Shown piece after piece: positions 19,005 through 54,710 of a stretch of DNA of 64,000 nucleotides (position 1 is its first letter; each line of letters begins with the position of its first letter). The stretch covers positions 62,001 through 126,000 of the forward strand of contig JAICSO010000013.1 in the NCBI GenBank assembly GCA_025936825.1. Reading direction: 5' to 3'. The notes under the pieces were generated by a model, which was not told the DNA's origin, did no database searches, and worked only from the letters and a program-made list of their open reading frames with translations. Position numbers and translations under genes: made by a program. Source of the DNA: Terriglobales bacterium (GTDB lineage: Bacteria > Acidobacteriota > Terriglobia > Terriglobales > Acidobacteriaceae).

Positions 19005-19021
19005 TGCTCTTCTTACAGAGA

Positions 19022-19133
19022 TGTCATTCCGAGGAGCGGAGCCATGCGGAACGACGAGGAACCTGCTTTTTCCCGACAGCAGCGGTATCTCCTGCAAGCA
19101 GGTTCCTCGTCGCTGGCGCTGCTCGGAATGACA
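19022..19133. repeat. Long imperfect palindrome (TGTCATTCCGAG family)
   Basis: TGTCATTCCGAG (19022-19033) is mirrored by CTCGGAATGACA (19122-19133), and inside them ACGAGGAACCTGCTT near 19052 pairs with AAGCAGGTTCCTCGT near 19096. The whole 112-nt unit would form one long stem. It follows the glmU stop by 17 nt and may also terminate glmU transcription. From memory, units beginning like this are scattered through acidobacterial genomes; a genome search would confirm it. Confidence 0.8.
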
Positions 19134-19178
19134 TTAGTTAATGGTGAGAGATAGATGTTAAGGCGCCTGTACTCAAAG

Positions 19179-22131: not shown

Positions 22132-22186
22132 CTAACCGCAGAGTACGACCAGGTGTCCTTGCGTTCTTTGCGTCCTTTGCGGTTAG
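22132..22186. repeat. Intergenic inverted repeat with GCAAAG words
   Basis: CTAACCGCA (22132-22140) is mirrored by TGCGGTTAG (22178-22186). The right arm, read on the minus strand, is CTAACCGCAAAGGACGCAAA followed by GAACGCAAGG: three near-copies of an ACGCAAAG word. It lies in the 226-nt gap between two divergent genes. It aligns with the repeats at 42.45 and 50.2 kb. Confidence 0.7.
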
Positions 22187-36219: not shown

Positions 36220-36224
36220 GAACA

Positions 36225-36315
36225 GTGGTTAGTGACTAGTGGTTAGTTGCTAGTCTTTGCGTAAGCCCCCGGAATCCCCCTGCGCGAATCCGGCTAGCCA
36301 CTAGTCACTAGCCAC
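36225..36315. repeat. Inverted repeat of CTAG-rich words
   Basis: GTGGTTAGTGACTAGTGGTTAG (36225-36246, 22 nt) is the mirror of 36294-36315 with two mismatches by eye. Each arm is itself made of repeated (C/T)TAGT words. It fills most of the 155-nt gap after the hybrid kinase and before ftcD. Confidence 0.8.
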
Positions 36316-36374
36316 TACGCCACTAGCTCACTCCTCCTTGCACCCTCCTTCCCGCACAGCTATCCTTCTCCCGT

Positions 36375-40022: not shown

Positions 40023-41192
40023 ATGCGGCGGGTTTACTTGGACAACAACGCGACCACCCCTGTGCTGCCCGACGTGCTGGATGCCATGCGTCCATACTTT
40101 GGCGAGCACTTTGGGAATGCCTCGTCCATCCATCACCATGGGCAGGAGACCAGGTCAGCGGTCGAGCGGGCTCGGGAATCTGTAGCGACCCTGCTGGGGT
40201 GCCGCCCTGCAGAAGTTGTCTTCACCAGCGGAGGCACTGAAGCTGACAATCTGGCGATCTTCGGTCTCGCTCGTTCCGGCGATCACGTTATCACTTCAAC
40301 CATCGAGCACCATGCTGTCCTGAACTCCTGCAAGCAGTTGCAGGAACGCGGCGTCGAGGTCACGTTCGTGCCGGTAGATGGCCGTGGGATCGTGAATCCC
40401 GATGATGTTCGCCGAGCGCTGCGGTCCAACACTAAGCTGGTCACGATCATGTACGCGAACAACGAGACCGGGGTGATCCAGCCGGTTGAAGAATTCGGCA
40501 AGATCTGCGCCGAGGCAGATGTCTACTTCCACACCGACGCGGTGCAGGCTGCGTCGAAGATCCCCATCGATGTAAAGACAATCGGCTGCGACTTGCTCTC
40601 GATTTCTGGACACAAGTTCCACGCACCGCAGGGAATTGGCGCGCTGTACGTCCGCAAAGGCACCAAGCTTGAGGCGCTGTTTTATGGCGGAAGTCACGAG
40701 CGATCCCGCCGCGCCGGTACGGAGAACGTGCCTGGAATTGTGGGTCTGGGAAAGGCGGCAGAGCTTGCCACGAAGGGCTTCGCAGCTGGAGATGATCGCG
40801 CAACGGCTGCTTTGCGAGACAAACTGCAGACGGCCATCCTGGACAAGATTGAGTGGGCCGGAGTGAATGGTCAGGGCGCTGCTCGGGTCCCAAATACGAC
40901 GAACATTTACTTCGATTACATTGAAGGCGAGGCGCTGGTGATTGCACTTGATCTCAAGGGACTTTCGGTCTCCACTGGCGCCGCATGTTCATCAGGCGCG
41001 ATTGAGCCTTCGCACGTGTTGACCGCGATGGGATTGCGTCCGGACCGTGCCCGCGCCAGCATCCGATTCAGCCTGGGTAAGCAGAACACGGCCGAGGACG
41101 TGGATTTCGCTCTGCAACTCGTCCCATCTGCTGTGGAACGATTGCGCGAATTGTCGCCCCTGTACAATAAGAAAACAGCTGTTAGCTCTTAG
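40023..41192 (+). CDS. Cysteine desulfurase (NifS/IscS family)
   Basis: 389 residues, a class V PLP enzyme. Motifs: YLDNNATTP, FTSGGTEADNLAI, EHHAVLNSC, ANNETGVIQP, HTDAVQAA, the PLP Lys in SISGHKFHAPQGIG, SRRAGTENVPG and the sulfur-carrying Cys in TGAACSSGAIEPSHVL. It makes persulfide from cysteine. The next gene on the same strand is mnmA, which uses this sulfur for tRNA 2-thiouridine, so a sulfur relay is likely. The ATG has no clear ribosome site; TAAAAT lies 6 nt upstream, which could mean a leaderless message. The last codons and the stop lie inside an intergenic repeat. Confidence 0.95.
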   Translation: MRRVYLDNNATTPVLPDVLDAMRPYFGEHFGNASSIHHHGQETRSAVERARESVATLLGCRPAEVVFTSGGTEADNLAIFGLARSGDHVITSTIEHHAVLNSCKQLQERGVEVTFVPVDGRGIVNPDDVRRALRSNTKLVTIMYANNETGVIQPVEEFGKICAEADVYFHTDAVQAASKIPIDVKTIGCDLLSISGHKFHAPQGIGALYVRKGTKLEALFYGGSHERSRRAGTENVPGIVGLGKAAELATKGFAAGDDRATAALRDKLQTAILDKIEWAGVNGQGAARVPNTTNIYFDYIEGEALVIALDLKGLSVSTGAACSSGAIEPSHVLTAMGLRPDRARASIRFSLGKQNTAEDVDFALQLVPSAVERLRELSPLYNKKTAVSS

Positions 41193-41281
41193 CCTTTAGC
41201 CGTCAGCGGAACCCGCTGGCCCTCTCCATCGCGGAACCACCTCGTGCTTTCGTTTCGGCTAAAAGCTAAAGGCTAAGAGCT
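41184..41281. repeat. Inverted repeat of TTAGC/GCTAA words
   Basis: AGCTCTTAGCCTTTAGC (41184-41200) is perfectly mirrored by GCTAAAGGCTAAGAGCT (41265-41281). Each arm consists of repeated GCTAA(A/G) words, and the right arm is extended by another AAGAGCT. The left arm overlaps the 3' end of the desulfurase gene and supplies its TAG stop (41190-41192). The right arm ends 14 nt before mnmA. Confidence 0.85.
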
Positions 41282-41295
41282 AAGAGCTGAGCCTC

Positions 41296-42411: not shown

Positions 42412-42490
42412 GGCTCTTGGCTTTAGGCTCTAGCGCTCCAAATTTCCTTCAGAGTTTTTTCGTGTGACTTCGTGTCCTTCGTGGTTGAAT
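42412..42490. repeat. Degenerate repeat copies after mnmA
   Basis: Two elements lie in the 107-nt gap. GGCTCTTGGCTTTAGGCTC and the next four bases (42412-42434) look like a decayed copy of the TTAGC repeat upstream of mnmA. Then 42456-42490, read on the minus strand, gives TCAACCACGAAGGACACGAA followed by GTCACACGAA, three near-copies of an ACACGAAG word, matching the layout of the repeats at 22.15 and 50.2 kb. Confidence 0.6.
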
Positions 42491-43063: not shown

Positions 43064-43098
43064 CAGGTCAGAATTGAATCACTGGGGGAAATAGAGTC

Positions 43099-43184
43099 AT
43101 TGAATCATCGGATCATTGAACCCACGTGAGTAGCCGCGGTTCTTCAATGATTCAATCGCTAAATGATTCAATGATTCAATCTAG
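43099..43184. repeat. ATTGAATCATTGAA-type repeats, inverted
   Basis: 43099-43120 contains ATTGAATCAT and ATCATTGAA. 43143-43156 (TTCAATGATTCAAT) and 43164-43181 repeat the same words in reverse orientation. The 117-nt gap between two minus-strand genes consists mostly of these words, and the last one touches the stop codon of the next gene. Confidence 0.75.
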
Positions 43185-48784: not shown

Positions 48785-50149
48785 ATGAAAAAGATTGTTC
48801 TGGCGATTCTGCTTGCGTGCGCAATGGTGGCCACCACGCAAGTTCCTACACAGGCCCAAGCCGCGCCGCAAAATCCGCCTGCTGCCCAGGGTGCCTCGGG
48901 CGGCGGAGAATCGGCGCCTACCATTAAGGATCCAGCCGAATATAACGCCTACGTCAATGCCATTCAGCAGCAAGATCCCAACGCCAAGATCAGTGCGCTG
49001 GAAGCTTTTCTCACGCAATACCCCAATAGCGTAATGAAGACCACCGCGCTGGAAGTCCTCATGGGAACCTACCAGGCGGCGAACAATCCGACCAAGGTTG
49101 TTGACACTGCAAAGCGGTTGCTCACCGCCGAACCATGTAGCCTCTCAGCGCTGGCTCTGTTGACGTTCAATAGCCGCCAGGCAGTTGCTACAGGACAGAA
49201 CCCGCAACAGAACCTGGCCGACCTCACGCAGTATTCCAATAAGGGCCTCGATTGTGTAAAGACCGCGCCCAAACCGGCCACTTTGCAGCAGGCGCAGTTT
49301 GACGACCTCAAGAAGAAAGTGAACCCAATTTTTGAGGCGGGTGCCGGCTTCGCGGCTCTGCAGAACAAGGACTACGAAAACGCAAAGACGCACCTGCGCA
49401 ACGCGGTGGAAACACAGCCCGAAGATTTACAGAACGTTTATCCTCTAGCCCTGGCTTACTTGACGCCGAATCCCCGGCCCGACGAAGACACCTTGAACGG
49501 CCTCTTTTTCACGGCGCGCGCCGTCAACCTCTCGAATGGCAATGCGCAGTTGATGCAGTATTTGACGAAGACGTACAAGAATTTCCATGGCTCGGATGAG
49601 GGTTTGCAGGACCTGCTGGCCTGCGCAAAAACCAATCCCATGCCAACCGCGGATTGCACCTCCAAAATCACGAAGTATGTGCCTCCTACACCGGCACAGC
49701 AGGCGCACGACCTGGTCAATGGTAAGACTCCCGAGCAGATTGCCCAATTGAGTTTCGGCGAATGGGAATTGGTTCTCTCCGCCGGCGCGCCTGAAGATCA
49801 GGACAAAGTTTGGAGCGTGATCAAGGGCAAGCCGCTGCAGATGCTTGGCCTCGTGGTCGAGGTGCCCAGTAATACGGAACTTCACATGGCGGCCAGCGCG
49901 GACGATATCGACGCCAAGCGGACCGACATCACCTTGACCATGACCGGCCCGATTCCAGCTGCGAAGCTGCCCAAGGGTGGTGAGACAGACTTTGCATTCG
50001 AAGGTGTGCCGGCATCCTACACGGCAACTCCTTTCATGTTGCAGATGACCGATGGCAAGCTTCTCAGGAAGCCCGGGGCAGCTCCGGCCAAGCCACCGGC
50101 GCGGCGACGCCCGGCGGGCACTACGCGGCGCAAACCAGCCGCGCAGTAG
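48785..50149 (+). CDS. Secreted TPR-like protein of unknown function
   Basis: 454 residues, ATG 48785 with GAGGAG at 7 nt. Signal peptide KKIVLAILLACAMVATTQV. An Ala/Pro/Gly linker leads to helical repeats of TPR type: AEYNAYVNAIQQQDPNAK, SALEAFLTQYPNSVM, VDTAKRLLTAEPCSLSAL, AGFAALQNKDYENAKTHL, NAVETQPEDLQNVYPLALAYL. The C-terminal third is beta-rich, followed by a basic Pro/Arg tail (KPPARRRPAGTTRRKP). It probably acts in the periplasm as a protein-binding scaffold. It is transcribed alone: strong promoter and structured leader before it, intrinsic terminator after it. Confidence 0.82.
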   Translation: MKKIVLAILLACAMVATTQVPTQAQAAPQNPPAAQGASGGGESAPTIKDPAEYNAYVNAIQQQDPNAKISALEAFLTQYPNSVMKTTALEVLMGTYQAANNPTKVVDTAKRLLTAEPCSLSALALLTFNSRQAVATGQNPQQNLADLTQYSNKGLDCVKTAPKPATLQQAQFDDLKKKVNPIFEAGAGFAALQNKDYENAKTHLRNAVETQPEDLQNVYPLALAYLTPNPRPDEDTLNGLFFTARAVNLSNGNAQLMQYLTKTYKNFHGSDEGLQDLLACAKTNPMPTADCTSKITKYVPPTPAQQAHDLVNGKTPEQIAQLSFGEWELVLSAGAPEDQDKVWSVIKGKPLQMLGLVVEVPSNTELHMAASADDIDAKRTDITLTMTGPIPAAKLPKGGETDFAFEGVPASYTATPFMLQMTDGKLLRKPGAAPAKPPARRRPAGTTRRKPAAQ

Positions 50150-50221: not shown

Positions 50222-50370
50222 AAACCTTCACCACAGAGAACACAGAGTCCCACAGAGGAACGCCACAGAGGAGTTCGAGAGTCTGTAGCTGCGGGAGGAC
50301 TTCGGCTTCAAAACCAAAATTCCTCTGTGAGCTCCTCTGTGGGACTCTGTGTTCTCTGTGGTGAAGGTTT
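50222..50370. repeat. Large inverted repeat of CACAGAG words
   Basis: 50222-50259 and 50333-50370 are perfect 38-nt reverse complements. The left arm begins AAACCTTCACCACAGAGAAC and continues with CACAGAGTCCCACAGAGGA. Just inside, CACAGAGGA (about 50264-50272) pairs with TCCTCTGTG (50321-50329), so the stem continues. The spacer is about 50 nt. The element separates the terminator at 50173 from the convergent Fis-like gene. Confidence 0.92.
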
Positions 50371-54630: not shown

Positions 54631-54710
54631 GTGGGCCGGACATTCGTGTCCGTCAAATGTTGGAGGAAAACCAAATGTCCGGAGTTGGCGGACAAGAATG
54701 TCCGCCCCAC
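54631..54710. repeat. Inverted repeat GTGGGnCGGACA...TGTCCGCCCCAC
   Basis: GTGGGCCGGACATTCGTGTC (54631-54650) is mirrored, with a few mismatches, by 54688-54710 (CGGACAAGAATGTCCGCCCCAC); each arm also holds its own GGACA...TGTCC dyad. It lies upstream of the gcdH start, in the gap to the hybrid kinase. From memory, GGGGCGGACA...TGTCCGCC units recur in acidobacterial intergenic DNA. Confidence 0.7.

Follow-up and report, generated by a model that had tools for sequence, protein, structure and literature searches.

Word-built inverted repeats associated with GxxExxY genes in a Terriglobales genome and across its phylum

Word-repeat arms in the window and in the genome

The window analysed here is a stretch of 64,000 nucleotides from one contig of a Terriglobales genome (G000; 6,540,933 bases, 141 contigs). 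Three short elements built from repeated words, E1, E2 and E3, are located between its protein genes (Table 1). A first-pass annotation of the DNA had called them related, and this is borne out by a pattern of two units with the same word: its six partly overlapping matches all lie inside E1-E3, far exceeding the mean of 0.04 and maximum of 1 in 100 first-order Markov shuffles of the window. The two 16-bp arms of E1 (22132-22147 and 22171-22186) are 88% complementary. E3 sits beyond a terminator-like hairpin that follows the gene at 48785-50149, and its 38-bp arms (50222-50259 and 50333-50370) are 100% complementary around a 73-nt loop. Because E1 is an imperfect palindrome and E3 a perfect inverted repeat, we regard the inverted pair of arms as the unit. 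A facing arm was looked for beside E2 and none was seen. On folding, E3 has a z-score of -12.9 and E1 one of -3.1; E2 forms no hairpin (z +1.2). The window contains no Rfam hit at gathering thresholds.

Table 1. Word-built palindromes and arms in the window.
Feature	Position	Strand	Description
E1	22132-22186	-	55-bp imperfect palindrome, GCNAAG subfamily (CTAACCGCAAAGGACGCAAAGAACGCAAGG ... CTCTGCGGTTAG)
Four-helix-class palindrome	36224-36332	.	Word like CACTAGC; arms against own four-helix locus L036 score 21, shuffled maximum 10
Four-helix-type palindrome, by form only	41176-41289	.	7-nt words GCTAAAG / GCTAAGA
E2	42456-42490	-	Lone arm, ACNAAG subfamily
Four-helix-class palindrome	43091-43180	.	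8-nt word ATTGAATC; arms against own four-helix locus L039 score 24, shuffled maximum 10
E3	50222-50370	.	Whole gene-less palindrome, ACNGAG subfamily

In the whole genome, the degenerate pattern ACCRCNNAGNMCRCNNAG has 150 matches, compared with four for the reversed control pattern. The first-pass annotation had also suggested looking for a strand bias; the matches fall on both strands (83 and 67), as expected of palindromes. We read the arms at the first 100 listed places and in the window, which gave 105 unique arms. Clustered by inner word, as had been proposed, they form four subfamilies, ACNGAG (35), ACNAAG (32), GCNAAG (18) and GCNGAG (18), the first three containing E3, E2 and E1, respectively. 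Each subfamily has its own word, linkers and outer bases, such that the likeness extends beyond the word. Of the 105 arms, 32% repeat the first word exactly as the second (shuffled 11%; 0 of 10,000 shuffles as high), with agreement of 90% at the R position (shuffled 53%), 49% at the third letter (37%) and 83% at the fourth (47%). Word agreement within arms is strong, yet imperfect. Copies of the arms lie less often in long open frames than random positions do (36/100 in frames of at least 200 codons, against 250/500 random positions of the same loci).

Gene-bearing elements and their proteins

G000 contains two GxxExxY genes (searched as TIGR04256 / PF13366) and eight four-helix-bundle genes (23S IVP, searched as TIGR02436). 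Both GxxExxY genes are flanked by inverted CRCNNAG arms, with the word CACGGAG at locus L031 and CACGAAG at L032. When these two elements were scanned, PDDEXK_3 was the sole Pfam match of the open reading frame (ORF) between the arms. E2 resembles the arms of L032 (score 21, shuffled maximum 12). The arms of E1 and E3 match neither element, and therefore their gene-bearing partner is missing or lost. The earlier statement that no coding gene is present thus holds for the window copies and fails for the full-length form, which carries a gene for the predicted nuclease GxxExxY.

The link between repeats and gene extends over 199 genomes of the phylum. Among the 28 genomes that we class as repeat-rich (pattern excess of at least 10 over the control; 14 family labels), all 28 contain GxxExxY, compared with 45 of the 171 others (p = 1.2e-14 without kinship correction). 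At an excess of at least 5, the gene is found in 36/46 genomes versus 37/153 others, the ten genomes without a detected GxxExxY having an excess of 5-7; it is found in 31/31 genomes at 8 or more, 20/20 at 15 or more and 17/17 at 20 or more. Four-helix genes occur in 22/28 repeat-rich genomes and 76/171 others.

To score the arms, we required an inverted repeat of at least 14 between the left and right flanks of a gene, with flanks of different loci paired as control. GxxExxY loci of the phylum pass in 27 of 31 cases, against 19 of 149 mismatched flanks. A search across phyla had been recommended at the outset. In a scan of named genomes with alignment A1, 57 of the best 80 loci among those listed pass (control 37/394), and the record titles of these 80 name Acidobacteria, Proteobacteria, Chloroflexi, Planctomycetes, Verrucomicrobia, Cyanobacteria, Bacteroidetes, Ignavibacteria, Armatimonadetes, Omnitrophota, Cloacimonadota, other groups and one archaeon (Methanothrix). 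The Methanothrix locus has no flanking inverted repeat scoring 14 or more. The phylum loci and the best 80 named loci together make 111, of which 29 are without a flanking inverted repeat of score 14. Inward-pointing CRCNNAG words number 3.35 per flank in the phylum loci and 3.23 in the best 80 named loci, and outward-pointing ones 1.26 and 1.29, a ratio of about 2.5:1. Word rows with ACC outside are found on both sides at 82 of the 111 loci, 9 of which also have ACC-inside rows; two loci have ACC-inside rows alone and 27 have neither orientation. Measured in 82 of the 111 loci, the element has a median length of 470 bp (interquartile range 450-524). The full form is one GxxExxY ORF between two inverted arms, each of about three 7-bp CRCNNAG words with ACC outermost.

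Loci from long or separate branches of the GxxExxY tree (L116, L118 and L122) have other arm words, ACCGATG, GCAGATG and GACAGGATT-like, and the words of the protein clade L116+L122 (support 100/98) lie outside CRCNNAG; therefore the fixed letters AG may shift with the deeper protein clade. Three GxxExxY loci from two distant families (L109, L111 and L118) have neighbouring sequence in common, at 70-73% between L111 and L118, as though one gene repeatedly had the element, or a site that it prefers, next to it. Eight plasmid records contain GxxExxY and 24 contain four-helix genes; none of the phage records matched the GxxExxY query. A recent insertion pair was sought in six plasmid regions and none was found.

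GxxExxY is a predicted minimal Cas4/RecB-like PD-(D/E)XK nuclease, judging from its conserved residues and modelled fold. D62, E72, K74, Q86 and Y90 are invariant in alignment A1 (24 rows); in A2 (27 rows), the first four are invariant and Y90 is conserved in at least 90%. We assign these residues to the D-ExK-QxxxY set, which we take to be that of Cas4/RecB nucleases. The two proteins of G000 match Pfam PDDEXK_3 with E-values of 2.8e-42 (L031) and 1.1e-41 (L032), and L032 has a weak PADLOC Cas4 hit (0.0077). An AlphaFold model of L234, built from A2 (pLDDT 96.5), has SSO0001 (4ic1) as its top structural neighbour (Z 9.3, rmsd 3.2 over 95 residues); further neighbours with Z below 8, such as the Hjc resolvase (1gef, 6.8) and XisH (6.1), may reflect general fold likeness. 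Foldseek returned no match for the model at E <= 0.001, and a sequence search of the PDB found no match for GxxExxY. Although the predicted fold and the D-ExK-QxxxY residues are those of Cas4/RecB-type nucleases, GxxExxY differs from them in standing alone, in its size of about 115-150 residues and in being encoded inside an arm-bounded element.

Parallel to this runs a second class, that of the four-helix genes, whose arms have private words of 7-8 nt. In G000 these genes lie between inverted rows of such words, a different word for each gene; at one of them, L036, only weaker pairing is seen, with ACTAGT/ACTAGCC rows. The inverted-repeat test is passed by 35 of 37 four-helix loci of the phylum (control 5/179), and the element has a median length of 482 bp in 35 of the 37. 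Their arms are near-pure tandem repeats, with a median match of 68% at the best lag and 34/35 above the shuffled 95th percentile; the best lag is 7 in 18 loci, 8 in eight, 14 in six and 9 in three. Right flanks of other elements match at a score of at least 14 in only 1.8% of cases; for 24/37 elements, no right flank matches as well as their own. Three palindromes of the window belong here by word or by form (Table 1); together with E1, they fold at z -3 to -6. For the one at 41176-41289, no own four-helix element with the same word was found (score 11, equal to the shuffled maximum of 11). Two further structures of the window are of other kinds: at 19021-19134, two nested inverted repeats (ATGTCATTCCGAGGAGCG and CGACGAGGAACCTGCTT) have a REP-type look, and at 54631-54710, a 26-bp inverted repeat (GTGGGCCGGACATTCGTGTCCGTCAA), 88% complementary, is unlike any word type described here. 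Some plasmid four-helix genes (L313-L314, L316-L317, cyanobacterial) lie in gene neighbourhoods common to different plasmids and not in an obvious isolated element.

Arms also occur in an arrangement that complicates this picture. A facing partner (CTNNGYGGT) lies within 200 bases of 45 of the 105 arms read in G000; random positions in these loci give a frequency of 0.29, with the elements themselves counted in this control. A back-to-back partner lies within 60 bases of 21 arms (random frequency 0.097); no arm has both kinds of partner and 39 have neither. In the back-to-back pairs, the ACC ends face each other at a distance of 8-44 bases, mostly 10-20, and the inner ends abut host DNA, so that the pair is a palindrome turned inside out relative to E1, E3 and the gene-bearing elements. 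Such arms are seen at L006, L011, L016, L020, L022, L023, L026, L041 and other loci of the genome. Reading the gene-less arms simply as copies of the element does not predict this form; our guess would be relics of joined ends, as at a circle junction, or neighbouring insertions. At L062, a facing pair spanning 354 bp, inspection by eye found no obvious GxxExxY ORF.

Orthologous sites and the behaviour of words and linkers

The first-pass annotation had called for a test of empty sites, and E3 provides one. In the congener G254, both flanking genes and the terminator-like hairpin are present and the element is absent; the gap between the aligned blocks is about 100 bases, compared with 275 in the own genome. 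At the intergenic site of the L031 element, we read 26 loci of the family by eye. Four contain a GxxExxY element (L209, L210, L115 and the own copy, L208), six a gene-less CRNNAG palindrome (L212, L216, L218, L219, L226 and L231), four an apparent single-arm remnant (L213, L215, L220 and L227) and four a palindrome or row built from other words (L211, L221, L223 and L225); the remaining eight are without arms (L214, L217, L222, L224, L228, L229, L230 and L232). At L216 (genome G280), the gene-less palindrome and the adjoining gene end are repeated in tandem about four times, with a unit of some 179 bases, which suggests local instability at the palindrome. We considered whether L031 (CACGGAG) and L115 (CACCGAG) descend from one ancestral insertion with a concerted change of word. 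Since the protein tree groups L031 with L209 and L210 (97/92, together with L240) and leaves L115 unresolved, we do not claim this.

Four-helix sites vary in the same manner. Among 20 loci of one site in genus g41, four have an insert of element length (L154-L157), ten are short and six are of other length (596-1115 bases), with only about 5-35 bases between the genes in L160, L163, L167 and L172. L161 has a gene-less palindrome, and its word is of the kind found in the four-helix element that its relatives carry. Different words occupy the same intergenic slots in relatives, both in g41 (L158 and L161) and in the own family (L211, L221, L223 and L225), which may make such slots hot spots of more than one word class. 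A candidate empty site for L124 in G030 (L190/L194, contig C47), where sister species have a GxxExxY element, was rejected on finding the left arm still there and the interior replaced; this interior contains an ORF that by eye resembles an IS200-type (Y1) transposase, along with other palindromes. No target-site duplication could be read in the aligned orthologous flanks, whose identity of mostly 64-78% would hide any, and the orthologous sites compared include no empty site with near-identical flanks. E1 and E3 show several features of MITEs, being gene-less, dispersed, bounded by inverted terminal repeats and polymorphic for insertion; E2 has one arm.

Word statistics were taken from the 66 of 111 GxxExxY loci that have three readable words on each side. 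Word identity is 0.616 for facing words, 0.611 for non-facing words of opposite arms and 0.581 within an arm, compared with 0.157 between elements. This agreement of 61% within an element against 16% between elements upholds the initial impression that the inner word is replaced as a unit. When right arms were re-dealt among the elements, the observed agreement was reached in 0 of 2000 trials, and the order of the units within an arm is irrelevant (1219 of 2000 shuffles as high). All six words are identical in 17 elements (0.06 expected), which use seven different words. In elements with heterogeneous arms, identity is 0.456 for facing and 0.447 for non-facing words; with no preference for mirror positions among the words, hairpin pairing was rejected as the cause of their agreement. 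Across 79 elements, word agreement falls as protein identity falls, from 0.88 above 75% identity (11 pairs) and 0.73 at 70-75% (30 pairs) to 0.60 at 65-70% and 0.53 at 50-55%.

The linkers behave differently from the words. Both linkers of one arm have the same lengths as their counterparts in the opposite arm in 64 of 65 elements (re-dealt arms, mean 18.0, maximum 30), and among 25 elements with unequal linkers the order is kept in 24 and swapped in none. Linker sequence identity is 39% at mirror positions, 26% at non-mirror positions between arms and 16% within an arm, an excess at mirror positions that 144 of 5000 swaps reached; pairing is 0.70 at mirror and 0.67 at non-mirror positions. 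From the element-wide word agreement and the mirrored linker lengths, it therefore follows that the word belongs to the whole element and the spacing to the mirror position. A templating process, as proposed in the first-pass annotation, is a possible source of the word agreement, which would equally follow if the six sub-copies were sites of one protein or if arms were born uniform and then drifted. The joint pattern of word and spacing fits either a protein that binds symmetrically to the duplex arms or uniform arms that were copied from each other and then drifted. Associations between protein residues and the fourth word letter beat permutation at alignment column 2 and marginally at column 3, and no other association did so. 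An edge effect is the probable cause, and we trust no residue to track the word.

Origin of the elements and relation to known repeats

We consider it probable that E1-E3 are gene-less, non-autonomous, MITE-like copies or remnants of mobile GxxExxY elements of about 0.4-0.7 kb. The nuclease, possibly together with host recombination or replication functions, would assemble symmetrically on the word rows of the two arms and cut the DNA, and the arms and their contents would thereby be moved or copied. Loss of the gene would leave a palindrome that may still be movable in trans. The word could stay uniform either because one protein recognizes all six sub-copies or because the arms are made from one another on copying.

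Tandem slippage, unequal exchange and hairpin template switching are standard mechanisms, and the first two acting within an arm, with template switching between arms, could produce concerted words by no special process. The near-pure tandem arms of the four-helix class are what this account would lead one to expect. Slippage as the sole cause in the GxxExxY arms would, however, spread the linkers too, and these are not homogenised whereas the words are (58-62%); template switching predicts that mirror words agree better than non-mirror words, which is not seen, and uniform-born arms that have drifted since fit equally well. On balance, we find this explanation rather doubtful. Selection on arm pairing, with the elements persisting as RNA or single-strand stem-loops (RNase III-processed, IVS-like or terminators), draws on the stable folding of E3 and the weaker folding of E1 and three other window palindromes, on the ability of back-to-back pairs to form hairpins too and on the 23S rRNA intervening sequence (IVS) with an S23p ORF, described as an RNase III-excised stem in the part of PMC4990558 drawn on here. 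Yet facing words agree no better than non-facing ones, linker pairing is hardly better at mirror positions, E3 lies behind a separate terminator that is retained in G254, and E2 is single-armed, all of which makes this reading improbable.

Alternatively, GxxExxY could be a passenger or host nuclease, for example one that cuts cruciforms, settled in pre-existing palindromes that spread otherwise. The Holliday-junction resolvases among its fold neighbours, the many gene-less palindromes and the presence of four-helix genes in similar palindromes with other words would be in keeping with such a history. It is nonetheless unlikely, given that, a few exceptions apart, CRCNNAG arms accompany GxxExxY and four-helix genes have 7-8-nt arms, and that all 28 repeat-rich genomes contain GxxExxY. 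We likewise give little credence to the arms being bound by an architectural or regulatory protein of the chromosome (IHF/HU-like) beside an incidental nuclease gene. Mirror spacing fits symmetric binding, back-to-back pairs fit sites without fixed polarity, and the parts of PMC2700814 covered here annotate opposite-strand pairs whose class 2 word is the complement of CACGGAGA; against this, the gene lies between the arms in most sampled loci of many phyla, every repeat-rich genome carries it, and sites are present or absent between relatives. Movement as REP-like palindromes by a Y1 (RAYT-type) transposase is very improbable. G000 does have eight Y1_Tnp genes and other REP-like palindromes (19021-19134), but across the 199 genomes Y1_Tnp (PF01797) is not associated with the repeats (20/28 versus 105/171, p = 0.21), contrary to the link to RAYT-like transposases that had been suggested for checking, and genome G076 combines 100 pattern matches and eight GxxExxY genes with no detected Y1_Tnp.

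MITEs, like the gene-less copies of this family, are short, dispersed intergenic palindromes whose ends are common to a gene-bearing element; here, in contrast, the partner gene encodes a small predicted PD-(D/E)XK nuclease rather than a known transposase, the ends are rows of private words and some arms stand back-to-back. REP/BIME sequences likewise form many palindromes per genome, and RAYT is proposed as their single-gene partner; the E1-E3 family differs in sequence and in having no association with Y1_Tnp. Intergenic tandem heptamers are known as STRR in cyanobacteria. The TAACTGA heptamers of Beggiatoaceae, cyanobacteria and Bacteroidetes, also intergenic and tandem, are given no explained origin in the parts of PMC4679880 covered, where, unlike the arms here, they are mainly direct repeats with no gene linked.

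Two described repeats come nearer. In Geobacter metallireducens, paired tandem-word 'global regulator binding sites' (47 sequences aligned) were annotated as possible IHF/HU sites; their class 2, like the arms here, comprises three tandem words in opposite-strand pairs at variable distance, and its consensus TCTCCGTS corresponds on the opposite strand to the CACGGAG word (PMC2700814, in the parts covered, which contain no GxxExxY link and no presence/absence data). The IVS of Coxiella 23S rRNA, as portions of PMC4990558 describe it, is about 430 nt long with one small S23p ORF, a 28-bp terminal stem and internal heptamers; its stem is excised by RNase III, and a mobile origin has been suggested. 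It lies in rRNA and its protein is that of the parallel four-helix class, not GxxExxY, whereas the arms described here consist of words and, within the window, lie between genes. E1-E3 fall outside the IVS type, lying between protein genes and having GxxExxY as the gene of their class. The Avd protein of diversity-generating retroelements (DGRs) resembles the IVP family (PMC10053308, in part), and the portion of PMC8934634 covered mentions GxxExxY once, with a possible link to reverse transcriptase. Among open-licence full texts, we found none linking GxxExxY to these repeats.

Since we infer mobility and the IVS offers a near precedent, we would place the family among known small mobile palindromic elements with MITE derivatives. 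More tentatively, and we regard this as possible rather than probable, the elements could be transposable elements of a separate class, apart from IS, RAYT, introns and DGRs. Such a class would be transposase-free, its iteron-like inverted word rows being acted on by a single Cas4-like nuclease or, in the parallel class, by an IVP/Avd-like four-helix protein. Each line's own word would be rewritten in all sub-copies with the mirror spacing kept, as if re-made from one template or tracking an evolving recognition code, and back-to-back pairs would be relics of joined ends.

The findings place two widespread, functionally uncharacterised protein families, GxxExxY and the 23S-IVP/four-helix-bundle proteins, in a genomic setting. 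They also indicate where a common type of intergenic repeat in bacteria, annotated elsewhere as regulator sites, is likely to come from. Words that change together, with spacers of mirror length kept, also make it a testable question how the ends of mobile elements evolve with their protein.
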